This document shows, piece after piece, positions 1 to 11,132 of a stretch of DNA of 12,290 nt (positions are counted from its first letter, which is position 1; every line of letters begins with the position of its first letter). Origin of the DNA: an uncultured Verrucomicrobiota bacterium. GTDB taxonomy: Bacteria; Verrucomicrobiota; Verrucomicrobiae; Opitutales; Opitutaceae. The translations under genes and the position numbers were made by a program. The DNA is taken from NCBI GenBank assembly GCA_946482165.1, contig CAMLQS010000133.1, forward strand, positions 1 through 12,290. The letters run 5' to 3'. The notes under the pieces were generated by a model that saw nothing but the letters and a program-made list of their open reading frames with translations, searched no databases and was not told the origin of the DNA.

Positions 1-574
1 AGCCCGCTTGGGGGATCTTGCTCGCGACGTCGGCGCTCCACGGCGCGGACCAGTTCACGAGGTCGGGGGATTCCCAGACGATGAGCGAGGTGCTGCCGCT
101 GGTGGTGGCGACGCCCCAGCCCTTCTTGCTGGCGATGCGCAGGTCGGTCGCGAGGATGTTGAACTTCTTGCCATCGGCGGAACGGATGATGGCGGGATCG
201 CGCACACCTTTTTCCCCGAGGTTGGAAAGGAGGACGGGCTCGGAGTTGTTCAAGTCGCGCCAGCGCAGTCCGTCTTCGCTGACGGCGAAGTAGATCTGCT
301 CACCGGCAGATCCCACGCCGGTGAAATAGACCAGGAGGTAGGCGGCGAGAGGCTCGGCTGCCGGCGCGGGCGCAGGGGAGGGAGGGGGAGCGGGAACGAG
401 CGCAGTATCGGGGGCGGGGGCCGGGGTGATTGCAGGGGCCGAGGCGGGGGCCGAGGCGGGGGCCGGAGTCCGCGAGGGCTTGGCGAACGCGGGGGCCTGG
501 GGGCGCGCGGAGAGGATAGAGGTGGCGCCGAGGAGGGGCAGCGCGCAGAGCAGGAAACGAAAGGAGCGGAACAT
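1..574 (-). CDS. Exported GH43-type glycoside hydrolase, C-terminal part missing (gene a)
   Basis: Only the first 191 codons are in the window; the frame is still open at the left edge. The start is the ATG at 574-572. It gives a short basic N-terminus (MFRSFRF) and a hydrophobic core ending near ILSA-RPQ, a plausible signal peptide. Residues about 30-75 are a low-complexity Pro/Ala linker. From about residue 76 the sequence reads as the first part of a GH43-like five-bladed beta-propeller: AYLLVYFTG, EQIYFAVSEDGLRW, LGEKGVRDPAIIRS, FNILATDLRI, then SLIVWESPDLVNWS. The Asp of VRDPAI is the likely catalytic base, and the EDGLRW and SPDLVNWS segments are typical of exo-acting arabinosidase or xylosidase relatives. 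The general acid would lie outside the window. It follows gene b after 51 bases on the same strand, so it is probably the fifth gene of the operon. Exact substrate is unknown. Confidence 0.85.
   Translation of the reverse strand, partial: MFRSFRFLLCALPLLGATSILSARPQAPAFAKPSRTPAPASAPASAPAITPAPAPDTALVPAPPPSPAPAPAAEPLAAYLLVYFTGVGSAGEQIYFAVSEDGLRWRDLNNSEPVLLSNLGEKGVRDPAIIRSADGKKFNILATDLRIASKKGWGVATTSGSTSLIVWESPDLVNWSAPWSADVASKIPQAG
435..466 (-). repeat. 12-base tandem repeat in the Pro/Ala linker of gene a
   Basis: Read on the plus strand, the 12-mer ggggccgaggcg occurs at 435-446 and 447-458, with a partial third copy at 459-466. On the coding strand it encodes repeated Ala-Ser-Ala-Pro units in the linker between the signal peptide and the catalytic domain. 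The 12-base period keeps the frame, so changes in copy number would only alter linker length. Confidence 0.75.
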
Positions 575-625: not shown

Positions 626-1615
626 TCAAGGTTTGGGCGGAAGGTCCACGCCTTCCGTCGTCTGCACCACGCGACGGATCGAGCCGTCGGCTTCGTGATA
701 GAGGTAGTCGATGCAGACGGCGCGACGATAGCTGCCGCCTTCGCCGAGGGGGCCGCCGCTTTGAATGCCGCCGTTGTGGTAGATGAAATACCACTGCCCC
801 TTAAACTCGATGATGCCTTGGTGGATCGTGTTGCTGTTAAAGGCGCCTTCCGAAACCAGCCCGCGGAAGGTCCATGGACCTTCGATCGAGGGCGCGGTGG
901 CGTAGGAGATTTTTTCGGGAAAGCCGCTGGCGTAGGAGAGGTAGTAGGTGTCGGCGTGCTTGTGGACCCAGGGCGCCTCGGTGAATCCGGTGAGACCGGC
1001 GACCTGCTTGATCGGGCCGTCGAGCTCGGTCATCGAGGGCTTCAGCTTGGCGTAGTAGCAGTTCACGTTGCCCCAGAAGAGCCAGGCGGCGCCTTCGGCA
1101 TCGATGAAGACGGCGGGGTCGATGTCTTCCCAGGAGTGCCTGCCTTTGGGCGTCATGTCGGCGGTGACGAGGGCGGATCCGCGGGCGTCCTTGAAGGGGC
1201 CGAGCGGAGAGTCCGCGACGGCGACGCCGATGGCCTTGCCGCGATGGGTGTCGTTATGCTCGATCGAGACGAACCAGTAGAACTTGCCGTCTTTCTCGAC
1301 GACGTGGGCTGCGTAGGCGTCTTTCGTCGCCCAGGCAAAGTCCTTCACGGAAAGCAGCGGGCCGTGGGGCGTCCAGGTGCGCATGTCCTTCGACGAGTAG
1401 CAGTGCCAGTCGGGCATTCGGTAGCTCTCCCTCGGTTTGGCGACGTCGTGTCCGGTGTAGAGGTAAACGGTGTCGCCATGGACGATGGCCGCGGGATCGG
1501 CGGTGAAGCGATCGGTGATGATCGGGTTGGCCGCGCGGAGCAACGGGGCCGCGAGCGGGAGGATAAGGGCGAGGACGGCCAGCGGACGGGAAAAAAGCGG
1601 GTTCACGGGAAGCAT
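626..1615 (-). CDS. Exported GH43 glycoside hydrolase, probable arabinofuranosidase/xylosidase (gene b)
   Basis: The protein has 329 residues with the chosen ATG at 1615-1613, which gives a normal signal peptide (MLPVNPLFSR, hydrophobic core, cleavage near LLRA-ANP). The mature part is one GH43 five-bladed propeller. Visible catalytic residues are D40 in FTADPAAI (general base), D166 in WEDIDPAVFID (pKa modulator) and E213 in GFTEAPWVHK (general acid). H265 in TIHQGIIE and the final propeller strands are also present, so the enzyme looks complete and active. The family acts on arabinose or xylose side chains and ends of plant hemicelluloses; the exact bond cannot be read from the sequence. 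An in-frame ATG at 1675-1673 overlaps the stop of gene c by one base (TGATG). It would add 20 residues, MPPSPLASAP and onward, ahead of the signal peptide, so a coupled longer start is possible. Confidence 0.92.
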   Translation of the reverse strand: MLPVNPLFSRPLAVLALILPLAAPLLRAANPIITDRFTADPAAIVHGDTVYLYTGHDVAKPRESYRMPDWHCYSSKDMRTWTPHGPLLSVKDFAWATKDAYAAHVVEKDGKFYWFVSIEHNDTHRGKAIGVAVADSPLGPFKDARGSALVTADMTPKGRHSWEDIDPAVFIDAEGAAWLFWGNVNCYYAKLKPSMTELDGPIKQVAGLTGFTEAPWVHKHADTYYLSYASGFPEKISYATAPSIEGPWTFRGLVSEGAFNSNTIHQGIIEFKGQWYFIYHNGGIQSGGPLGEGGSYRRAVCIDYLYHEADGSIRRVVQTTEGVDLPPKP

Positions 1616-1674: not shown

Positions 1675-2709
1675 TCAAGGGGCGTCGGGCAGGCCTTTTC
1701 CGTCGATGATTGGCTCGCCGCGGTCTCCCGGGCGGAAGGTCTGGACCATGGGATCCATGGGCTGGATACGGCCGTCGGAGTCGAAGGTCATGCGGGCGAG
1801 ACAGACTTCGCGCTTGTAGCCGTTGCCGTCGGGAATCGCGTGGCGGTGGTAGGCGACATACCAGCGGTCGGTGCCGGGGACGTTCACCACGCTGTGATGG
1901 GCGGTGGCGACGGCGGGGCCGTTTTTCGCCAGGACGATGAAGTCCTTGCCTGACGTGGTGACCGGGCCGGTGGGCGAGTCGGCGACGCCCCAGCCGACGC
2001 GGTAGTTGGGGCTGCGCGCGTCGTCGATGGACCACATGAAGTAGTATTTGCCCTGTCGCTTGAAGACCACGATGCCCTCGCGGAAGTCCCGAAGGGGAAT
2101 GTCGACGGGATTGCCGTCGACGGTGATCATGTCGGGCTTGAGGCGGACGACCTGGCAGGGACGGCCGTTGCCGTAGTAGAGCCAAGCCTGGCCGTCGTCA
2201 TCGATAAACGGATACGGGTCGATGGTGTTGGTGCGGACGAGCGGATCGTTCTTGCCCTTGCGTTCGAGCAGGGGGCGGTCGAGCGCGTCCTTGAACGGAC
2301 CGGCGGGCGTGCCGGCGGTCGCCACGCCGATCTTACCGTCGGCGCAGAAATAGAAATAGTAGGTGCCGTCGCGCTCGATGCAGTCGGGCGCCCAGGCGCG
2401 GAGGTTCGCCCATTTCAGCTCACGCGTGACGTCGAGGATCATGCGTTCCTTTTTCCAGGTCACGAGATCCTTGGAGGACCAGACGGAGAAGTCGGTGGTG
2501 AGCCACTTGTCTTTGTCGGAGGTGGGGTAGACGTAGTAGGTGTCACCGAAGAGGCGGATGCCCGGGTCGGCGGTGAATCCGTCGAGAATGGGTCTGGGCG
2601 GGACGGGCGCCGCTTCGGGCGTCGGGGCGCCCGCTTGGGATTCGGCGAACGCGGTGCAGCAGGCCAACGCGCCGATCAAGGCGGCTGGCCAGCGGATAAG
2701 GGAGCGCAT
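1675..2709 (-). CDS. Exported GH43 glycoside hydrolase (gene c)
   Basis: The protein has 344 residues. The N-terminus MRSLIRWPAA followed by a hydrophobic core and AFA-ESQ is a signal peptide; the Cys pair at 17-18 is not in a good lipobox, so signal peptidase I processing is more likely. After a short Pro/Ala-rich stretch (to about residue 40) comes a GH43 propeller. Probable catalytic residues are D48 in FTADPGIRLFGDTYYVY (base), D164 in NTIDPYPFIDDDG (modulator) and E211 in FREGIVVFKRQGKYYFMWS (acid), with a histidine pair at 271-272 in ATAHHSVV. The closest relatives by pattern are bacterial GH43 beta-xylosidases/arabinofuranosidases of the D-G-F-x-A-D-P type. It lies 28 bases after the GH30 gene on the same strand, and its stop touches a possible start of gene b, which supports a common transcript. 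Confidence 0.92.
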   Translation of the reverse strand: MRSLIRWPAALIGALACCTAFAESQAGAPTPEAAPVPPRPILDGFTADPGIRLFGDTYYVYPTSDKDKWLTTDFSVWSSKDLVTWKKERMILDVTRELKWANLRAWAPDCIERDGTYYFYFCADGKIGVATAGTPAGPFKDALDRPLLERKGKNDPLVRTNTIDPYPFIDDDGQAWLYYGNGRPCQVVRLKPDMITVDGNPVDIPLRDFREGIVVFKRQGKYYFMWSIDDARSPNYRVGWGVADSPTGPVTTSGKDFIVLAKNGPAVATAHHSVVNVPGTDRWYVAYHRHAIPDGNGYKREVCLARMTFDSDGRIQPMDPMVQTFRPGDRGEPIIDGKGLPDAP

Positions 2710-2737: not shown

Positions 2738-4141
2738 TCAGGCCTTGGGCTCGGCGGGAGGCAGGATAAAGGTGTGGACGGAGCGGGGCGGAAGTTTCAC
2801 CCGAAGCCGGTCGGGGCGTCCGGCGACGGCCACGGTGAAGGTGTGTTCCCTCGGCGAGGAGTTGGCGGCGACAACGACGACGGACCGGTCGGGATTGACG
2901 AAGGCGATCTGGTCTCCCCAGAGGCTGGTGGAGACGATGCGGCGGGCGCCGGGGCGAACGTAGCGGCTGAAGTGGCTGAGAACGTGGTATTCGCCGTTGT
3001 AGGCGACTCGGGCTTCGTCGCGGTGGACGGTGACGAGGGCGTTCTGTTTCCAGTCCCACGTGCTCATGCCGGTTTCGTTGAGCACCATGTTCCAGGCGAA
3101 GTAGGCGTTGGCCCCGTTGGAGAGATAGCGTTTGAGTTCGCCGAAGAGCCTGAAGGCATCGTCCCAAGAATTGGCCCCGCCGTTGCACTTCGTTTCGGAC
3201 TGCATGAGCTTTTTCTGGGGATAGAGCTCGTATGCGAGGCCGATCTGGGTGTTGCGGTCGTATTGGAAGGCGATGCCGGTGAGGAAGGAGTTGGCGCGCG
3301 GGTCCTCGAGGACCGTGATGAGGCGGGCGTTGGGGTTTTCTCCGCCGTTCACGGGATCGCCGTTGAGTCCGAGCCAAAGTTCCACGTCGGGGTGGCGCTC
3401 GCGGAGGACGGGGCCCAGGTAGTCGGCGATGAATTCGCGCAGCTCGGGGCCGCTCCAAAGGCAGGTGGGGTAGGGGCTGGCGATGTTGGGCTCGTTCTGC
3501 GGGGCGATCGCATAGATGGGAACGCCCTTGGCCTTGTAGGCTTCGACCCAGCGGGCGAAGTAGTCGGCGTAGGTGCGGAGCACGCGGGGCTCCCAACGCA
3601 GGGAGCCCTTGGCGTAGGAGCGGTTGGTTTTCATCCAGGCGGGCGGGCTCCACGGCGAGGCCCAGCAACGGAGGTCGGAGCGGGTGGCGAGGGCGGCCTG
3701 GATGTAGGGGAGAAGGAGCTTCTCGTCGCGCGCGGTAGAGAAGTGCTTGAGCTCGTAGTCCTCCGGGGTGTCGGCCAAGGAATAGGCGTCGAGGGCGAAG
3801 TCGCTCGCGCCGATCGGAATGCGGGCGAGATTGAAGTTCGCCCCATCCGGCCCGAACAGGGCGCGGACAACTTCGTCACGGGCGGACTGCGGGAGGACGG
3901 AGAGTGCTTGCCAGCCGTGTTCGTTGAAGCAGCCGCCGAAGCCGTCTATCGTCTGGCGGAGGCGGTCGGGAGAGACGTAGATGGTCGGCGGTTCGTCGGC
4001 CCGGGCGGGTTCGAACGCGGGGGCGGGCATGAGCTCGCCGGATTTTTCCGCGGTGGTGGCTATCCAGATAACCGACGGGTCGGCGAGGAGAGGGGCGGCC
4101 GCGGCGAGGGCGGAAACGAGGGCGATGAGGGTTTTTCGCAT
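2738..4141 (-). CDS. Exported GH30 glycoside hydrolase
   Basis: The protein has 467 residues with the ATG at 4141-4139. MRKTLIALVS plus an Ala/Leu core ending LLA-DPS is a signal peptide; the frame stays open upstream, but that part would destroy the signal peptide and overlap gene d. The protein has the GH30 layout: an N-terminal strand of the side beta-domain, then a TIM barrel from IDGFGGCFNEHGW (about 65) onward, with WASPWSPPAWMK (160-171). E217 in APQNEPN is the acid/base and E316 in MQSETK is the nucleophile. The C-terminal beta-sandwich is at about 385-460 (GEYHVLSHFSRYVRPGARRI, then AFVNPDRSVVVVAANSS). GH30 includes beta-glucosylceramidases, beta-1,6-glucanases and xylan-active enzymes. 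The GH43 neighbours favour a hemicellulose role, but the specificity is not proven by the sequence. Confidence 0.93.
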   Translation of the reverse strand: MRKTLIALVSALAAAAPLLADPSVIWIATTAEKSGELMPAPAFEPARADEPPTIYVSPDRLRQTIDGFGGCFNEHGWQALSVLPQSARDEVVRALFGPDGANFNLARIPIGASDFALDAYSLADTPEDYELKHFSTARDEKLLLPYIQAALATRSDLRCWASPWSPPAWMKTNRSYAKGSLRWEPRVLRTYADYFARWVEAYKAKGVPIYAIAPQNEPNIASPYPTCLWSGPELREFIADYLGPVLRERHPDVELWLGLNGDPVNGGENPNARLITVLEDPRANSFLTGIAFQYDRNTQIGLAYELYPQKKLMQSETKCNGGANSWDDAFRLFGELKRYLSNGANAYFAWNMVLNETGMSTWDWKQNALVTVHRDEARVAYNGEYHVLSHFSRYVRPGARRIVSTSLWGDQIAFVNPDRSVVVVAANSSPREHTFTVAVAGRPDRLRVKLPPRSVHTFILPPAEPKA

Positions 4142-4212: not shown

Positions 4213-5292
4213 TCACGGGGCGCTGGCGAGGGACGCGGGGGATGTATGCGGGTAGGGACCGTCGGGCACGGGCGTTCCGAAATCGGGCGAGCCGTCCGGG
4301 CGCCAATGGATTATCTGCGCGCGGGTGGCCCGGTCCGGATTTCGCAACGGGGAGCCCTGGATATGTTCGTAGTTGCGCGCGTGATACACGAGGACGTCGG
4401 TCTTGCCGTCGGGCGTGGTGGTGAAGCTGTTGTGCCCGGGGCCGAACTGGCTCGCTGAGCGGTAGCTGGCCAGGACGGGCTCGGGCGATTTTTTCCAGAC
4501 GGAGGCGTCGAGCAGGTCGGCGTCCGCGTCGGCGGAGAGGAGACCGAGGCAGTAGTTGGCGTCGGTGGCGCTGGCGGAATAGGTCATCCAGACGCGTCCG
4601 TTTTTGACGAGGACGGCCGGGGCTTCGCAGACCGAGTGGCGGCGTTTTTCCCAGTGGTGTTCGGGCTTGGTGAGACGGGTGACGGGTCCCGCGATGGACA
4701 AGGGGGTGTCCATGCGGGCGATGTAGATGTTGGAGCCCTTGATGCCTTTTTCGTCCTGGGCCCAAACGTAGTAGCGAACGCCCCGGTGGACGAAGGTGGT
4801 GGCGTCGAGCGAGAACGAATCCCAGCCGAGCTTGATCTTTCCCTTTTCCGTCCAGGCGGCCTCGAGAGGATTTTCGCCGGCGCCTTCGAGAACATAGGGC
4901 CGAATGGCCCAGATGTTTTCGGCTTCGCCGGCGGTAAAGTAGAGATACCACTTGTCGTCGATAAAGTGGAGTTCGGGGGCCCAGATGTGGGCGCCCATCG
5001 GTCCGCGGGAGTGTTTACGCCAGATGACCTTGGGCTCGGCGTCGGAGAGGCCGGCGAGGGTGGGGGCGCGGCGCAACTCGATGCGGTCGTATTCCGGAAC
5101 CGTGGCGGTGAGATAGTAGTAGCCGTCGGCATGAAGAATGACGTGGGGATCCGCCCGCTTCGGGATGATCGGGTTGGTCCACGAAATCGCGGGATCGGCG
5201 GCGACGATGGACGGGGCGGGCTCGGCGGCGCTCGCGGCGACGGCGTGCAGCAAAGCGAACAGGAGGAGCAAGCGACGAAACGTGTGTGACAT
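4213..5292 (-). CDS. Exported GH43 alpha-L-arabinofuranosidase-like enzyme, first gene of operon (gene d)
   Basis: The protein has 359 residues from the ATG at 5292-5290. A longer frame begins at 5349, but the shorter start puts MSHTFRRLLL and a hydrophobic segment ending ASA-AEP at the N-terminus, a clear signal peptide. The domain matches the bacterial alpha-N-arabinofuranosidase 2 type of GH43: RADPHVILHADGYYY (D48, base), TVPEYDRIELRRA, GAHIWAPELHFID, WDSFSLDATTF (D163), SVCEAPAVLV (E223, acid), TYSASATDANYCLG and FGPGHNSFTTTPDG (H287). This type usually removes terminal arabinose from arabinan or arabinoxylan. It is the promoter-proximal gene of the leftward operon, 71 bases upstream of the GH30 gene. 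A palindromic operator candidate lies 107-128 bases upstream of its start. Confidence 0.93.
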   Translation of the reverse strand: MSHTFRRLLLLFALLHAVAASAAEPAPSIVAADPAISWTNPIIPKRADPHVILHADGYYYLTATVPEYDRIELRRAPTLAGLSDAEPKVIWRKHSRGPMGAHIWAPELHFIDDKWYLYFTAGEAENIWAIRPYVLEGAGENPLEAAWTEKGKIKLGWDSFSLDATTFVHRGVRYYVWAQDEKGIKGSNIYIARMDTPLSIAGPVTRLTKPEHHWEKRRHSVCEAPAVLVKNGRVWMTYSASATDANYCLGLLSADADADLLDASVWKKSPEPVLASYRSASQFGPGHNSFTTTPDGKTDVLVYHARNYEHIQGSPLRNPDRATRAQIIHWRPDGSPDFGTPVPDGPYPHTSPASLASAP

Positions 5293-5631
5293 GGAAAATC
5301 CGGGAATGATTAGGGGAGGCTCCGGAGTCGGCCCGAGGGTTCCGCGCAAACACTCGCCGAGGGGAACAGTGACGATAGCGGAGGTCGGATGGTTCAGGTA
5401 TAGACCCGACCGGGTCCATTGTTCGCGAGGGCGTTTCGGGGGTAAGGTGTTTCCCTCCCCACGGCGTCCCGGCTGCTCGTCGAGAGAACGTCCTTCCCCT
5501 GTTCGCGGCCTTTTACTCCCCCATCGCTCTCCAGCGTCCTTCGACGTTCCCCGATTTTTAAGCGGCTTCGTCCCCCGGTCGTTTGTCCACGGTCCGCGCC
5601 GCCGCGTCTTTTTCCAGCCCTAATCCCAACC
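5293..5631. other. Divergent intergenic region between hydrolase operon and surface-protein gene
   Basis: These 339 bases separate two divergently read genes and should contain both promoters. The only clear element is the imperfect palindrome at 5399-5420. On the minus strand a TATACC lies directly downstream of the palindrome and might be a -10 box, but no good -35 goes with it. The part next to the plus-strand gene (about 5450-5631) is rich in C and T on the plus strand. I see no small gene or terminator here. Confidence 0.6.
5399..5420. promoter_or_regulatory. Candidate LacI-type operator upstream of the GH operon
   Basis: The left arm TAGACCCG (5401-5408), a 2-base centre AC, and the right arm CGGGTCCA (5411-5418) form an inverted repeat with one mismatch. 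The right half CGGGTCCATT is identical to that of the perfect palindrome at 9485-9506, upstream of the LacI-family regulator gene. Distance to the start of gene d is 107 bases, compared with 88 bases between the second site and the regulator start. Binding by that regulator is inferred. Confidence 0.7.
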
Positions 5632-8247
5632 ATGCATCCTATCCCATCGCTCGTCTCAATGTCCTCCGTTCCGGCTTTCTCCATCGGACAAGCCGTTGCC
5701 GCGAAAAAAATCCGCGCGTCATCCGTCAAACTGCATTCAGCCATACTCGGCCTCGCCTTCGCCGCATCCATTCCCGCCCTTCACGCCGCCACCGATGCGT
5801 GGGACGGTTCGACCGATTCCCTCTGGGCGACGGCGACCAACTGGGCCACGGACGTCTCCGCGCCCGGAACCGGTGAGAGCGCCACCTTCAACGGCGCGGG
5901 CAATGGCAACACGGTCGTCGATCTCGGCGCCGGCGTGACCGTCGGCTCCGTTCTTTTCGACAGCGGCTCCGCCGCCGCCTACACGATCGGCTCCGGAGCG
6001 ATCGGCAGCCAGACGCTCAGCCTCGACAACGCCGGGGCGATCACGGTGAACGCCGGCGTCACGAGCGCCCAGACCTTCAACGCGAACCTCGCGCTGAACA
6101 GCGCGGCGGGCGCCACCACGACGATCACCAACAATGGATCGGGCGTTCTCGCCTTTGCAGGCGCCATCAATGCCAATGTCGCCAGCGGCAACGGCGTATT
6201 GAACGTCGATGGCACCGGCGACACGACGATTTCCGGCGCGATCACCAAGACCGGCGCGGGCAGCAACGCTCTCTTCAAGAAGGGCTCGGGCACCTTGACG
6301 CTTTCCAACGGCAGCGTCTGGAGCGGCGCGGGTGCCGTGCAGACTGCTTTCTCCGGTCCATTCACCGTTCAACAAGGAACCCTCCTTCTTGGTGGCGGCA
6401 CGCACACCGTCACCGGTGAAGCGGTCATCGGCGGTGTGGTGACGCATGGGGGAGCAGGTCAAAATGCAAAGATCCAGGTGGACGCCGGTGCGCTCAGCGT
6501 CAGCGGCTTTCTGTCCGTCGGCCGCGGCAACGGCACGGGTGCGGTGTCCTCGGACTTGGTGTTGAACAATGCCGCCTCTGTGACGGCCGGAAACATTAGC
6601 GCCGGCTTTAACGCCGGCAACACCGCCAATTTGCCCAAGGGTTCCATCACATTGAACGGGACATCCTCCCTCACGGTGTCCGGCGGAACCAACAGGGTCT
6701 TCTTCCTGGGCGAGTCGGTTGGCTCGGACATGACTCTGACGGTCAACGATTCCGCCGTGGTGACCAACACGACGGGCAGGGTCGGCCTCAATAATAACGC
6801 GAATAATTCGGCCTCATTGACGATCGGAAGCGCGACCGGAAAAGGCACGGTGATCATGAACGGCGGCACGATCAACGTGAGTTCCACGGATATCGGAAAG
6901 GGACTGAACAATACCCAGGCGGGCAACGGCACGCTCACGGTGAAAACGGGAGCGACCTACAACAACGAGGGCGATTTCCGCACCGGATTCGCCGGAAGCG
7001 CGTCCGGCCAAGCCACGGTGAACGTGGACGGAGGCACCATTAACATTGGTTCAACGGTCACGCGCTGGATGCAGATTGGTTACTGGGACTTCACCAACTC
7101 CACGATCAACGTTACCGGCGGAAATCTGAATCTGAACGGCGGTTCTTCGATTCGATTCAATATCAATAACAATACCGGCACGAACGCGATCAACCAGAGC
7201 GGAGGCAATGTCACTTTCTATAGCGACAATCAGACGACGATCGGCGGCACCGGCGTTCTTGAGATGCAGGCCGTCGGCGGGGCGGCGAGCAACAACACCT
7301 ACAACCTTAACGGCGGAACGCTCACGGTGACACAGGTGATGTCCACCGCGACCACTGGCACGCGGACGTTCAACCTCAATGGCGGCACGTTGAAGGCGGC
7401 GAAGGCGACCACGGCCTTCCTTAATCTCGGCGCCGGCAACGCCCGTGCCAACGTTCGCAACGGCGGCGCCCTGGTCGACACCAACGGGTTCGACGTCACC
7501 ATCGCCCAGGCGCTGGAGCACAGCAATGTCGGAGGCGACAACGCCACCGACGGCGGTCTGACCAAGTCCGGTTTGGGCAAGCTGACGCTCTCCGGCGTCA
7601 ACACCTACACCGGCAACACGACGATCAACTCCGGCACCTTGGCGCTCGCCTCGACCGGCAGCATCGCCAACAGCGCCACGATCATCGCGAACGGCACCTT
7701 CGATGTGTCCGCGGTCACCGGCTTCACCGTCGGCGCCAGCCAGACCTTGAGGGGCTCCGGCACGGTCACCGGCGCGACCACGGTCAATGGCACGCTGGCG
7801 CCCGGCAACAGCCCCGGTCTGCTCACTTTCTCGGGCGACCTGAGCCTCGGTGCGTCCTCGACCTCGCAGTTGGAGATCAACGGCACGACCCGCGGCTCGG
7901 GCTATGACGCGGTCGACGTCGGCGGCGCTTTGTCCTATGGCGGCGTAATGAGCCTCGTCTTTGATGCTCCGATCAGCGCGGGAACCTACGATCTCTTCGG
8001 CGGGTTCAGCGGCCAGTCGGGCACCTTCGCTTCCGTCAGCGTGGGCGGCAGCTTCGCCGAGGCCTTCAGCGGCTCCCCGGTCATCACCGGAAGCGGATGG
8101 AGCGCCTCCAGCGCCAGCTGGAGCTACGCCTTCGACAATGGCAGCGGCGACTTGACCATCAGCGCGATTCCCGAGCCCTCGGCTTTCGCCGCTCTCGCCG
8201 GTTTGGTCGGCCTTGGCCTCGTCGGCTCCCGTCGCCGCCGTCGCTGA
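5632..8247 (+). CDS. Large beta-helix surface protein with PATR repeat and PEP-CTERM sorting tail
   Basis: The protein has 871 residues. From the ATG at 5632 there is a long basic N-region (KKIRASSVK) followed by a hydrophobic segment ending PALHA-ATDAW; an ATG at 5659 would give a shorter version. The mature part is Gly/Thr/Ser/Asn-rich, with repeating strands such as GNGTLTVKTGATYN, ATVNVDGGTINIG and STINVTGGNLNL, as expected for a right-handed beta-helix. A textbook autotransporter-associated repeat sits at about 641-670 (GGLTKSGLGKLTLSGVNTY, then GNTTINSGTL). It is followed by the usual GTLAPGNSPGLLTFSGDLSL segment near 722. The tail is IPEPS, a hydrophobic helix, then SRRRRR: a PEP-CTERM signal recognised by an exosortase. 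There is no outer-membrane beta-barrel, so export would be by Sec plus PEP-CTERM sorting. Adhesion or polymer binding is plausible but inferred. A terminator follows. Confidence 0.93.
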   Translation: MHPIPSLVSMSSVPAFSIGQAVAAKKIRASSVKLHSAILGLAFAASIPALHAATDAWDGSTDSLWATATNWATDVSAPGTGESATFNGAGNGNTVVDLGAGVTVGSVLFDSGSAAAYTIGSGAIGSQTLSLDNAGAITVNAGVTSAQTFNANLALNSAAGATTTITNNGSGVLAFAGAINANVASGNGVLNVDGTGDTTISGAITKTGAGSNALFKKGSGTLTLSNGSVWSGAGAVQTAFSGPFTVQQGTLLLGGGTHTVTGEAVIGGVVTHGGAGQNAKIQVDAGALSVSGFLSVGRGNGTGAVSSDLVLNNAASVTAGNISAGFNAGNTANLPKGSITLNGTSSLTVSGGTNRVFFLGESVGSDMTLTVNDSAVVTNTTGRVGLNNNANNSASLTIGSATGKGTVIMNGGTINVSSTDIGKGLNNTQAGNGTLTVKTGATYNNEGDFRTGFAGSASGQATVNVDGGTINIGSTVTRWMQIGYWDFTNSTINVTGGNLNLNGGSSIRFNINNNTGTNAINQSGGNVTFYSDNQTTIGGTGVLEMQAVGGAASNNTYNLNGGTLTVTQVMSTATTGTRTFNLNGGTLKAAKATTAFLNLGAGNARANVRNGGALVDTNGFDVTIAQALEHSNVGGDNATDGGLTKSGLGKLTLSGVNTYTGNTTINSGTLALASTGSIANSATIIANGTFDVSAVTGFTVGASQTLRGSGTVTGATTVNGTLAPGNSPGLLTFSGDLSLGASSTSQLEINGTTRGSGYDAVDVGGALSYGGVMSLVFDAPISAGTYDLFGGFSGQSGTFASVSVGGSFAEAFSGSPVITGSGWSASSASWSYAFDNGSGDLTISAIPEPSAFAALAGLVGLGLVGSRRRRR

Positions 8248-8276
8248 GGGGCTTGCGAAGCCGTGTTCGGTTCCCG

Positions 8277-8305
8277 GCCGCGCCAGCCACTTGGCGCGGC
8301 TTTTT
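8277..8305 (+). terminator. Intrinsic terminator after the PATR/PEP-CTERM gene
   Basis: Perfect 9-base stem GCCGCGCCA (8277-8285) with TGGCGCGGC (8292-8300), a 6-base loop and five T residues at 8301-8305. It begins 30 bases after the stop codon, so the next gene probably has its own promoter. Confidence 0.9.
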
Positions 8306-8431
8306 CGTCGGTCGGCGCGTGTGAGTTAATCACGGCTTCATGCGTCCGACATTCTCTTCCGTCCCTTGCCTGCGGTTCTTAAACGCCGCGCCGGCTTTTG
8401 GCGCGTTCCCATCCATTCCCGCTTTTTTCCC

Positions 8432-9406
8432 ATGCACGATCCAACTCATCGTTCCGTCTCCCGATTCAGTCTCGCCGCCGCGCTTTTGCTCCCGGCCGTG
8501 AGCGCCCAGGCCGCCACGTTGGCGTATTATCGTTTCGAAGGGGCGTCGCTCGGCGAAATCGTCAGCCCGGTCGACGATCTTTCCGGCGCCGGCCGTTCCA
8601 TCCATCCCTGGGGGCCGGTGCTGCGGTCCTCGGACGTGCCCGTGGCGAAGGTGCCCGAGACCGGCGCGGGCAACCTCGCCTCCGTGCGATTCCTCGGCGA
8701 CTCCGACTGTTTTTCCAACGCCGACGAGGGGCTCAGTCGTCAGTCTCCGGCGAGCTTCACCATCGAGGCATGGGTGAAATTCGATTCGCTCGCGGGCGTG
8801 CAGACCTTCATCGGTCGCGACGACATCAACGAAGGGGCCGGTCGCGGATCCCTGTTCTATTTTTCGAAGGAGAACGACGCGTTTCCGATGCCCGACCGCA
8901 CGGCCAACGCGTTTCGCGTCGAGTTGGTCACCCGTGACAACGCGGTGATCTCGGTCAACAGCGGCCACGTGGCGCAGACGGGCGTCTGGTATCACGTGGC
9001 CGCGGTGGGCGATGCGACGAAGGGCACGCTTTCGCTTTATGTCGACGGGCGGCAGGTCGGCGATTGCGCGGGGTTCACCGGGCTTTTCGCCCCCTCCGGA
9101 CATGGGATGTGGACCTTTGGCCGCGGCCAGTTCAGCGGCCGCGTGGCCGACCGGTTTTTCGGATTCCTTGACGAGGTGCGTTTCAGCGACGTGGCGCTTG
9201 CGCCGGATCGCTTCCTCAACGCCGTCCCTCCCCCGCCTCCCGTCCCGGTGGCGGTTCCGGCACCCGTGTCTCCGCCGCCCGCGGTGGTGATAGTTCCCGA
9301 GGCGGTTCCGCAAGCTCCGGCGAGTTCTCCGGTTGATGACGATGCGGCCCCTTCGGCGGAAACGGCCAAGCGCCGCCCGGGTTCCTTGTGGCCGGCCAAG
9401 CGTTGA
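8432..9406 (+). CDS. Exported LamG-domain (concanavalin-like) protein with Pro-rich tail
   Basis: The protein has 324 residues from the ATG at 8432, chosen because MHDPTHRSVSRFSLAAALLL and an AQA-ATLA cleavage site make a signal peptide. A frame opening at 8366 would add 22 residues in front of it. Residues about 28-263 form a LamG/Laminin_G_3 jelly-roll: LAYYRFEG at the start, SFTIEAWVKFDSLAGVQTFIGR (109-129), GVWYHVAAVGDATKGTLSLYVDGRQVG (184-210) and FFGFLDEVRFSDVALAPDRF near the end. This fold often binds carbohydrate. Residues about 265-310 are Pro/Val/Ala-rich, and the tail is AKRRPGSLWPAKR with no PEP-CTERM signal, so its cell location (periplasm, released, or held through the tail) is unclear. 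Terminators lie on both sides, which suggests a single-gene transcript. A carbohydrate-binding role beside the hydrolases is inferred. Confidence 0.88.
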   Translation: MHDPTHRSVSRFSLAAALLLPAVSAQAATLAYYRFEGASLGEIVSPVDDLSGAGRSIHPWGPVLRSSDVPVAKVPETGAGNLASVRFLGDSDCFSNADEGLSRQSPASFTIEAWVKFDSLAGVQTFIGRDDINEGAGRGSLFYFSKENDAFPMPDRTANAFRVELVTRDNAVISVNSGHVAQTGVWYHVAAVGDATKGTLSLYVDGRQVGDCAGFTGLFAPSGHGMWTFGRGQFSGRVADRFFGFLDEVRFSDVALAPDRFLNAVPPPPPVPVAVPAPVSPPPAVVIVPEAVPQAPASSPVDDDAAPSAETAKRRPGSLWPAKR

Positions 9407-9436
9407 TTCGCGCCATTTTTCCGTCGTCTGGTTTCG

Positions 9437-9470
9437 CGCCCGTGATCGCCTGAGCGACCACGGGCGTTTT
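9437..9470 (+). terminator. Intrinsic terminator after the LamG gene
   Basis: CGCCCGTG (9437-9444) pairs with CACGGGCG (9459-9466). After a single mismatch the stem continues with four more pairs around a CTGA loop, and TTTT follows at 9467-9470. It lies 30 bases after the stop codon and just before the operator upstream of the regulator. Confidence 0.85.
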
Positions 9471-9484
9471 GCATCTGGTCCGCG

Positions 9485-9506
9485 AATGGACCCGAGCGGG
9501 TCCATT
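9485..9506. promoter_or_regulatory. Perfect palindrome, candidate operator of the LacI-family regulator
   Basis: AATGGACCCG (9485-9494), centre AG, CGGGTCCATT (9497-9506): 10-base arms with no mismatch. It has no loop suited to a terminator and no T run. It lies between the terminator of the LamG gene and the start of the regulator, 88 bases upstream of the latter, a typical position for autoregulation. It shares its right half exactly, and most of its left half, with the site at 5399-5420. Confidence 0.78.
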
Positions 9507-9594
9507 TCCCCGGTGGCGTGTTTGCACTACGATACAAGGCATCCCGGAGGGGCGAATTCGAGAACCTCCTCCGGAAGAAAAACACCTGCGATCC

Positions 9595-10635
9595 ATGTCC
9601 ACCATTCGTATGCTCGCGGAAGAGCTGCAACTTTCCCGGGTCACCGTTTCCGCGGCGCTTCGCGGCTTGCCTTGGGTAAAGTTGACGACCCGCGAGCGCA
9701 TCCTCCGGCACGCCGAAGAGCGCGGCTATGTTTCTGTTGCCGGGGCCGGAGCGTTCTTGGGCGTGGTCTGCATTTTGCGCATCAAAGGGGTCGGACAACG
9801 CGGGCGGGCCGCTGTGGAGCGGCACCGGGTTATCACGCGCGGGGTGCGAGAGGTTGCCTATGAGTTGGGATACGGCGTGGAGGAGTCGGTGGCCGACTTG
9901 GATGATCTCGGAAACTTCGATCAGATGACGAATGATGCCGGCCATTGCGGAATGATCATTCTCCCTGTCTCCAACGACGATCTGCTTCAGCGTAGCCGGC
10001 TGCCTGAAGTGCCCTGCGTCTACACCGACATTCCCTCTGATGCGCTGGGCCTGGACTCCGTTTTTCCGGATTATCACCAGGGCATGTTTCTCTCGCTTGC
10101 CCGGCTCCGTGCTTCGGGGTTTCGACGAACGGGTCTGATGCTGGACAACCAGCTTTCGCTGCCAGTGAGAGAGAGACTGCTCTCGGCTTATGGCTTTGCG
10201 TTCGCCGGTGGCGGGGCGCCTCCGCCTCCGCCCCTTTTCACCCCGGTTCGTTCGCTCGACGTTTCCTCATCGTGGATGCGGCGGCATTCCTTCGATTCGC
10301 TTTTGACGACGGACACGGAACACTCGCGCCGGGTCGCGTCGGAGTTCGCGCTTCCTGTTTTCGGCCTGGCCGCGGAGCCGAGGCCCGGGGAGTCGGGGCT
10401 TAATCTGAACCTTTGCGAAGTGGGGCGGGGCGCGATGGACAAGCTCCACAATCTCCATGTCGGCTCCGGGCGCTCGTTATCATCCTCGTGCGCATTGGTC
10501 GCCACCTCGTGGGTGGTTTGCGATCAAGTCGACGGTGGGCGCCGCGAGCCGGTCGCGAGCACGGTTGCCGGGGACGTCGCCCGTGCAGTGGCCGAAGCGG
10601 AGACGGTCTTGCGCCTTGAGCGCGCGGCGCGCTGA
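9595..10635 (+). CDS. LacI-family transcriptional regulator (divergent)
   Basis: The protein has 346 residues from the ATG at 9595, which places MSTIRMLAEELQLSRVTVSA at the N-terminus as in LacI-family helix-turn-helix domains (TVSAALRG recognition helix, TTRERILRHAEERGY third helix). A frame opening at 9469 would add 42 residues and cover the operator, so it is not used. Residues about 54-310 resemble the periplasmic-binding-protein-like effector domain: FLGVVCILRI, VREVAYELGYGVEE, CGMIILPVSND, PCVYTDIPSD, and HQGMFLSLARLRASGFRRTGLMLD. Effector is probably a sugar from the hydrolase substrates (inference). Oddities: the segment after the HTH (VSVAGAG) lacks the usual A-R-x-L hinge helix, a GGGAPPPPP loop interrupts the second half near 206-213, and the C-terminus extends to ERAAR. 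It is convergent with the flagellar gene whose stop is 25 bases away. Confidence 0.88.
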   Translation: MSTIRMLAEELQLSRVTVSAALRGLPWVKLTTRERILRHAEERGYVSVAGAGAFLGVVCILRIKGVGQRGRAAVERHRVITRGVREVAYELGYGVEESVADLDDLGNFDQMTNDAGHCGMIILPVSNDDLLQRSRLPEVPCVYTDIPSDALGLDSVFPDYHQGMFLSLARLRASGFRRTGLMLDNQLSLPVRERLLSAYGFAFAGGGAPPPPPLFTPVRSLDVSSSWMRRHSFDSLLTTDTEHSRRVASEFALPVFGLAAEPRPGESGLNLNLCEVGRGAMDKLHNLHVGSGRSLSSSCALVATSWVVCDQVDGGRREPVASTVAGDVARAVAEAETVLRLERAAR

Positions 10636-10660: not shown

Positions 10661-11044
10661 TCAGGCCGCGGCGTGGCGGTCGCGTCCGTCCCCGTGGTCG
10701 CGCGGGGAGGCGGCGTAGGCGCCGCGCACGGCGCGCAGCCGGCGGGAGCCGCGCTCGAGTTCCGCGCGTTCCAGTTCGGAGGCGGCGCGGGCCCGGCCCA
10801 CGCGCTGGCCGAGGGCGGCGTAGCGGGCGCGCAGCGCTTCCGCCCGGGCGAGCGTGGCGGGGTCGGCGGGAGGGGCGCCGTCCTGTTCGGCGGCGAGGCG
10901 GGCGATCACCGCGAGTTCGCGTTCGAGAAGCGCGGCGAGCGCCGGCCAGTCGTCGTGGCCCGCCGCCCCTTCTTCCTCGTGGGCGAAGGATTCGACGCAG
11001 GCGAGCAGGCGCTGCGTGGCGGGACTGGGTGGTTGGTGCGACAT
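10661..11044 (-). CDS. Small alpha-helical protein, probable FliT-like flagellar chaperone
   Basis: The protein has 127 residues from the ATG at 11044-11042 (MSHQPPSPAT). An ATG at 11116 would add 24 residues (MVIIALGNAG and onward) that run across the 11073-11092 palindrome, so the shorter form is preferred. The sequence is almost wholly helical and rich in Ala, Arg, Glu and Leu. It has two coiled-coil-like stretches: WPALAALLERELAVIARLAA (33-52) and the region from ATLARAEALRARYAALGQ to RAVRGAYAA (63-112). Size, composition and position directly downstream of fliS fit FliT, the export chaperone of the filament cap FliD, and the C-terminal ELERGSRRLRAVRGAY resembles FliT/FlgN-type tails. FliT sequences are poorly conserved, so the call rests mainly on context. 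Confidence 0.6.
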   Translation of the reverse strand: MSHQPPSPATQRLLACVESFAHEEEGAAGHDDWPALAALLERELAVIARLAAEQDGAPPADPATLARAEALRARYAALGQRVGRARAASELERAELERGSRRLRAVRGAYAASPRDHGDGRDRHAAA

Positions 11045-11072
11045 GGGAGGATGGGGAGGGATGGGGTGGGTG

Positions 11073-11092
11073 GCAGGGCGGGCCCGCCCTGC
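11073..11092. repeat. Perfect 20-base GC-rich palindrome between fliS and the FliT-like gene
   Basis: GCAGGGCGGG joined directly to its reverse complement CCCGCCCTGC, without a spacer. It lies in the 88-base gap between the fliS stop and the preferred start of the next gene. It could act as an RNA hairpin altering downstream translation or mRNA stability, or be a REP-like element. There is no T run for a terminator on either strand. Confidence 0.7.
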
Positions 11093-11132
11093 GTTCCCGA
11101 GAGCAATGATCACCATTTGGCCGCGCCGTCGG

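Follow-up and report, generated by a model that had tools for sequence, protein, structure and literature searches.

Paired palindromic sites predict a local autoregulated hydrolase regulon for a hinge-less LacI-derived regulator in an uncultured Opitutaceae bacterium

The window analyzed here, the whole 12,290-nt stretch of contig CAMLQS010000133.1 from an uncultured member of the Opitutaceae (assembly GCA_946482165.1), contains a glycoside hydrolase operon and a gene for a LacI-like regulator, each preceded by a similar palindrome. This arrangement raises the question of whether both palindromes are operators of the adjacent regulator and, if so, what kind of protein would read them. Comparison of sequences leads us to the view that both probably are operators of this LacI-derived protein, which would control its own gene and the GH43/GH30 operon as an autoregulated local regulon. 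It also reveals that the regulator departs from its family in a segment of the protein that usually contacts the operator center.

An initial annotation of this DNA had described a perfect 22-base palindrome before the regulator gene and a near copy before the hydrolase operon, and both were recovered. Predicted operator 2 (AATGGACCCGAGCGGGTCCATT; 9485..9506, no strand assigned) reads AATGGACCCG-AG-CGGGTCCATT, with perfect arms in a 10+2+10 arrangement. Predicted operator 1 (TATAGACCCGACCGGGTCCATT; 5399..5420, no strand assigned) reads TATAGACCCG-AC-CGGGTCCATT and differs from operator 2 at 3 of 22 positions, or at 2 when both central bases are ignored; 0.00 such matches are expected by chance (200 dinucleotide shuffles of the window). 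The right half, CGGGTCCATT, is the same in both sites, as had been stated, and exact copies of the 10-base half are confined to these two places in the window. No further full copy is present in the window, again as claimed, the next-best match having 6 mismatches (two central bases ignored) at 4693 within the GH43a gene. Both sites are intergenic, operator 1 between the starts of GH43a (5292) and the divergent PATR gene (5632), and operator 2 between the end of a LamG gene (9406) and the regulator start (9595). The reported distance of 88 nt from operator 2 to the regulator ATG is correct (the site spans 88-109 nt before the start), whereas the 107 nt given for operator 1 and the GH43a ATG becomes 106 (106-127 nt before the start). 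The divergent PATR ORF lies 211 nt from operator 1. Comparing LacI/GalR sugar regulons, Ravcheev et al. 2014 (PMC4052901, excerpted text) placed more than 75% of LacI-type sites 140 to 30 bp before starts, a range that includes both window sites, and found autoregulation for 72% of the regulators they studied.

As sequence, the palindrome has the even form of a 16-22-nt operator (22 nt, arms of 10), to which the regulator would bind. The central pair is AG in operator 2 and AC in operator 1, and central CG is absent from both. The half-site elements GGAC and GTCC are separated by 8 bases, a spacing common to the two sites (n = 2). Elsewhere in the window, a second perfect palindrome, GCAGGGCGGGCCCGCCCTGC at 11073-11092, is the sole other one with 10-base arms and a spacer of 0-8; it lies within a called FliT-like ORF (10661-11116), yet upstream of a likelier start, and adjoins FliS.

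Downstream of operator 1 are five co-directional genes on the minus strand, in agreement with the operon originally described, the fifth being cut by the window edge. GH43a (4213..5292) is followed by a GH30 hydrolase (2738..4141), GH43b (1675..2709), GH43c (626..1615) and GH43d (1..574), with gaps of 71, 28, 59 and 51 nt given the start codons we chose. GH43d scored 135.8 bits with the NCBIfam alpha-arabinofuranosidase model, below the cut-off of 500, and as truncated here had no Pfam match at E <= 0.001. The best-scoring model for GH30, the NCBIfam endo-1,6-beta-glucanase, was far below its cut-off, which leaves the operon's substrate uncertain. The divergent PATR-repeat protein (5632..8247, plus strand) has a C-terminus resembling PEP-CTERM or MYXO-CTERM, with both scores just under the NCBIfam cut-offs. 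Two sequences named Rariglobus (P0017 and P0029) are among the close homologues of GH43a. The closest GH43 cluster, located on a single contig (G313:C69) of a related genome, has relatives of all four GH43 types at 65-76% identity and adjoins genes that, by ORF reading, resemble a sugar ABC transporter; no member of the regulator clade was found on that contig, a point against pairing regulator and operon. These similarities make an Opitutales-like bacterium the probable source of the window. At 47174-47255 of the same contig (about 3174-3255 of locus L172), similar palindromes TATTTGTCACTTAATAAGTGACAAATA and GTTTGTCACTTATTAAGTGACTAAC occur in tandem before an ORF resembling a sugar ABC transporter ATPase, within the cluster of four GH43 relatives.

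The regulator itself (346 aa; 9595..10635, plus strand) had been called LacI-type. LacI-family descent stands, but an ordinary LacI-type protein it is not, a departure that the initial annotation overlooked: the helix-turn-helix (HTH) scores 15.3 bits with the Pfam LacI HTH model versus a cut-off of 27, and the hinge segment is missing. Searching with the regulator returned six proteins at E <= 0.001 (best 7997 candidates scored, from a database of 5.8 billion). P0001 is a 99% copy of the window protein and P0002-P0006 are five true homologues; P0127 (a fragment), P0128 and a weak P0129 came from a further, profile-based search. The single window sequence matches CcpA at E 0.0034, and the group profile, built with hinged P0128 included, aligns from the HTH into the core with CcpA (E 2.4e-9) and LacI (E 3.1e-5). 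A periplasmic-binding-protein-like sensor core was recognized by sequence profile, with A3 aligning to solved LacI-family chains over 176-232 residues (best E 2.6e-10). These matches point to a protein that belongs with the LacI family by descent, as a hinge-less variant.

Absence of the hinge is a property of the whole clade. Between the HTH and the first core strand, 6/6 clade members have 23-25 residues and 49/49 relatives have 36 (48 loci, L081-L128, plus P0128; the copy P0001, the fragment P0127 and the unaligned P0129 were left out of the count). The missing segment of 11-13 residues holds the hinge helix in all 49 relatives, the hinge being kept in 48/48 loci. It carries NPLAGALM, whose A and L fall at hinge positions 51 and 54 in our own alignment to the numbering in the excerpted text of PMC2978694, and the window regulator has no hinge helix bearing A51 and L54. 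The six regulators form one clade (support 100/99), which hinged P0128 joins at 99/99, subject to a long-branch warning. P0128 has the same recognition-helix region as the clade; it and clade member P0006 have SHVT, not SRVT. AlphaFold2 places a helix at 51-56 in P0128 and none in the window protein, with low confidence there for both; over the whole model, pLDDT is 73 for P0128 and 48, a poor value, for the window protein. A Foldseek fold search with the window model listed LacI-family chains at a TM of about 0.2 and was discarded, the model being too poor.

Hinged relatives possess a palindromic motif of their own, TCTKACNGTMAGA. Exact copies were found within 300 nt upstream of 30 of the 48 hinged relatives versus 0.00 per shuffled upstream set, and copies with at most one mismatch upstream of 33 versus 0.04; at up to one mismatch the motif was absent upstream of 15. 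These 48 are the best matches of longer lists and include near-identical rows. Across 14 genomes there were 27 exact sites compared with 5 in a reversed control, but the genomes were picked from the 30 with the motif before the regulator, and 14 of the 27 sites thus carry no new information. Of the further 13, 11 were within 30 kb of the regulator and 2 outside. The relatives' operator is an odd 13-nt palindrome with half-sites one base apart and a CNG center, in many cases situated 15-27 nt before the start codon. In genome G503, a cluster encoding a TonB-type receptor, GH43, rhamnogalacturonan lyase 11 and GH88 contains five sites along its length, among them sites directly before the regulator, the receptor and the GH88 gene. 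The motif apparently marks a pectin-type regulon of this order. It recurs in plant-polysaccharide clusters of G298, G353, G355, G365, G503 and G504.

With the motif both before regulators and in nearby clusters, regulators of the wider group seem to govern local, autoregulated regulons devoted to plant cell-wall sugars, the role initially predicted for the window, and by analogy the relatives back a similar reading there. They resemble the window in having a homologous protein and a palindrome both before the regulator and in a plant-polysaccharide cluster, as in G503; they differ in retaining the hinge and in the form of the operator, with half-sites 1 rather than 8 bases apart. As a candidate operator in the window, TCTKACNGTMAGA was rejected (5 mismatches at best, upstream of both the regulator and GH43a), and the window operator therefore cannot be read across from the relatives. 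GGAC/GTCC does occur in a few relatives' sites, with an SRTT recognition helix, there 1 base apart versus 8 in the window; the pairing of SRTT-type helix with GGAC half-site covers few sites and has exceptions. Moreover, since the palindrome of hinged relatives also lacks a central CG, loss of hinge and loss of CG are not cleanly linked.

Sequence patterns for the regulator fitted 35 stretches in a collection of genome contigs and 32 in viral contigs, with 0 orthologues confirmed in either, and 252 genomes from a single related family yielded no close orthologue. The best regulator match was E 1.1e-39 in 372 genomes of the order, sampled from a larger set (best 5 or fewer candidates per genome scored), and E 5.7e-41 in the 252 family genomes (best 8 or fewer). 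Because these E-values each cover one genome and those of clade members (1e-76 to 1e-108) a far larger database, the latter are much stronger matches. The window operator yielded 13 sites in the 252 genomes, all with 3 mismatches, versus 10 in a reversed control. A widely conserved operator was accordingly rejected. At up to 5 mismatches, related loci gave 22 matches versus 5 in the control, but 13 of the 22 are the family-genome matches, leaving 9 versus 5; three further genomes had none (0/3). On the earlier concern that the palindrome might be scattered through genomes lacking the regulator, these 252 genomes, with no close orthologue found, contain background copies only. For regulator homologue P0004 (51%) and GH43a homologue P0014 (78%), the longest contig listed is 61409 bases in both cases, a coincidence that suggests the linkage of regulator and operon holds in a second organism.

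Promoter-like features were sought beside each site. A TAnnnT sequence lies exactly 21 nt downstream of both, on the strand of the target gene: TACGAT (9528..9533, plus strand) after operator 2 and TATCGT (5372..5377, minus strand, that of the hydrolases) after operator 1, each a possible -10 box. The pattern has a frequency of 0.00195 per position, and a shared offset within 60 nt a chance of about 2e-4, with the pattern picked after looking. No standard sigma-70 promoter was found at either site. If the TAnnnT sequences are -10 boxes, each operator would have its center near -44.5 and would stop at the point where a -35 box is expected to start.

The same two sites could be read in other ways. 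They might belong to another transcription factor encoded elsewhere, such as a wider pentose or catabolite regulator, with the adjacent regulator gene a mere target. The half-site spacing, unlike that of the relatives' operator, fits this idea, as does the missing central CG typical of most LacI-type motifs (PMC4052901, excerpted text). The same text, however, gives autoregulation as the rule for local LacI-type regulators, and relatives of the window regulator have the autoregulatory layout. With no copy better than 3 mismatches in 252 family genomes where searches found no close orthologue, a widely shared factor with the window site is unlikely, and overall we consider a foreign binder improbable while giving it the most weight among the alternatives. 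Least credible is the notion that the palindromes are hairpin elements, dispersed repeats or chance matches rather than protein operators. A perfect palindrome may fold into a hairpin, and one hairpin of terminator-like form (9447..9466, plus strand; 0.4 expected by chance there) does lie between the LamG gene and operator 2, 18 nt before the latter; one phage-like contig of the viral collection also matches the inner 18 specified bases exactly. But no T run follows either palindrome, no Rfam family matches the window at gathering scores, 0.00 copies are expected in the window and the 252 related genomes contain background alone, leaving this reading very little room.

A different doubt concerns the sign of control. 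The pairing of sites and regulator could be right and the protein an activator, as an operator near -44.5 without a -35 box also occupies a class II activator position. The 21-nt geometry common to both promoters and their want of sigma-70 type elements are compatible with activation. This case relies on putative -10 boxes whose pattern was chosen after looking, and many operators of relatives, at 15-27 nt before the start codon, sit where a repressor would. Most local LacI-type sugar regulators are repressors. We regard activation as rather unlikely, slightly more so than a foreign binder.

Our preferred reading, a local autoregulated regulon, would operate as follows. A regulator dimer is predicted to bind the site before its own gene, giving autoregulation, and the same dimer to bind the site before the GH43/GH30 operon. 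Most likely it would cover the -35 region at each promoter and be released or altered by a pentose-type sugar; a sugar freed from an arabinan- or xylan-type polysaccharide probably alters binding, and the inducer may be a pentose or a pentose oligosaccharide. Repression is the default reading, by way of the putative -10 boxes, and the adjacent regulator is the presumed binder at both sites. Of the small regulon first proposed, autoregulation and control of the hydrolase operon are supported by site positions, the strength of the pair and the local layout in relatives; the divergent PATR gene, 211 nt away, is at most a possible further member. With the hinge segment absent, the usual insertion of a helix at the operator center cannot form in the usual way. 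More tentatively, and with the odds somewhat against so specific a scheme, the hinge may have been lost in one event in a small LacI-derived clade along with the usual operator geometry, such that the HTHs would read half-sites spaced about 7 bp wider than those of hinged relatives, with no helix entering the minor groove, and the sugar signal would be passed on to DNA release by means other than folding of the hinge.

The nearest known exception to the hinge/CG rule with which to compare this protein is CytR of E. coli, a LacI-family member said, in work attributed to Jorgensen and colleagues in 1998, to have an unstructured linker and half-sites set apart. CytR takes varied spacing via a flexible linker, whereas in the window regulator the segment is deleted and two sites share one spacing. 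Camas et al. 2010, in excerpted text, cite CytR as a rare exception to the union of hinge and CG. Like the LacI/GalR sugar regulons of Ravcheev et al. 2014 (PMC4052901, excerpted text), the window has an even 22-nt palindrome, predicted autoregulation and a local carbohydrate target operon; unlike them, it has central AG/AC in place of CG and a regulator without a hinge. That text reports central CG in motifs of 1173/1303 regulators and, for 78/1303, even motifs whose central pair is another one or degenerate. As judged by titles in the open-licence literature, no paper was found on hinge-less LacI-type regulators or on LacI operators of Opitutaceae.

The paired-operator layout is ordinary, and it would assign the hydrolase operon to the regulator. 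The missing hinge matters more, as PMC2978694 (excerpted text) portrays a hinge helix inserted at the central CG as a nearly universal trait of the LacI family. A natural hinge-less clade, together with a predicted pair of operators and the hinged tree neighbor P0128, makes the need for a hinge directly testable. Furthermore, the relatives' motif offers a handle on plant-polysaccharide regulons in a little-studied order.
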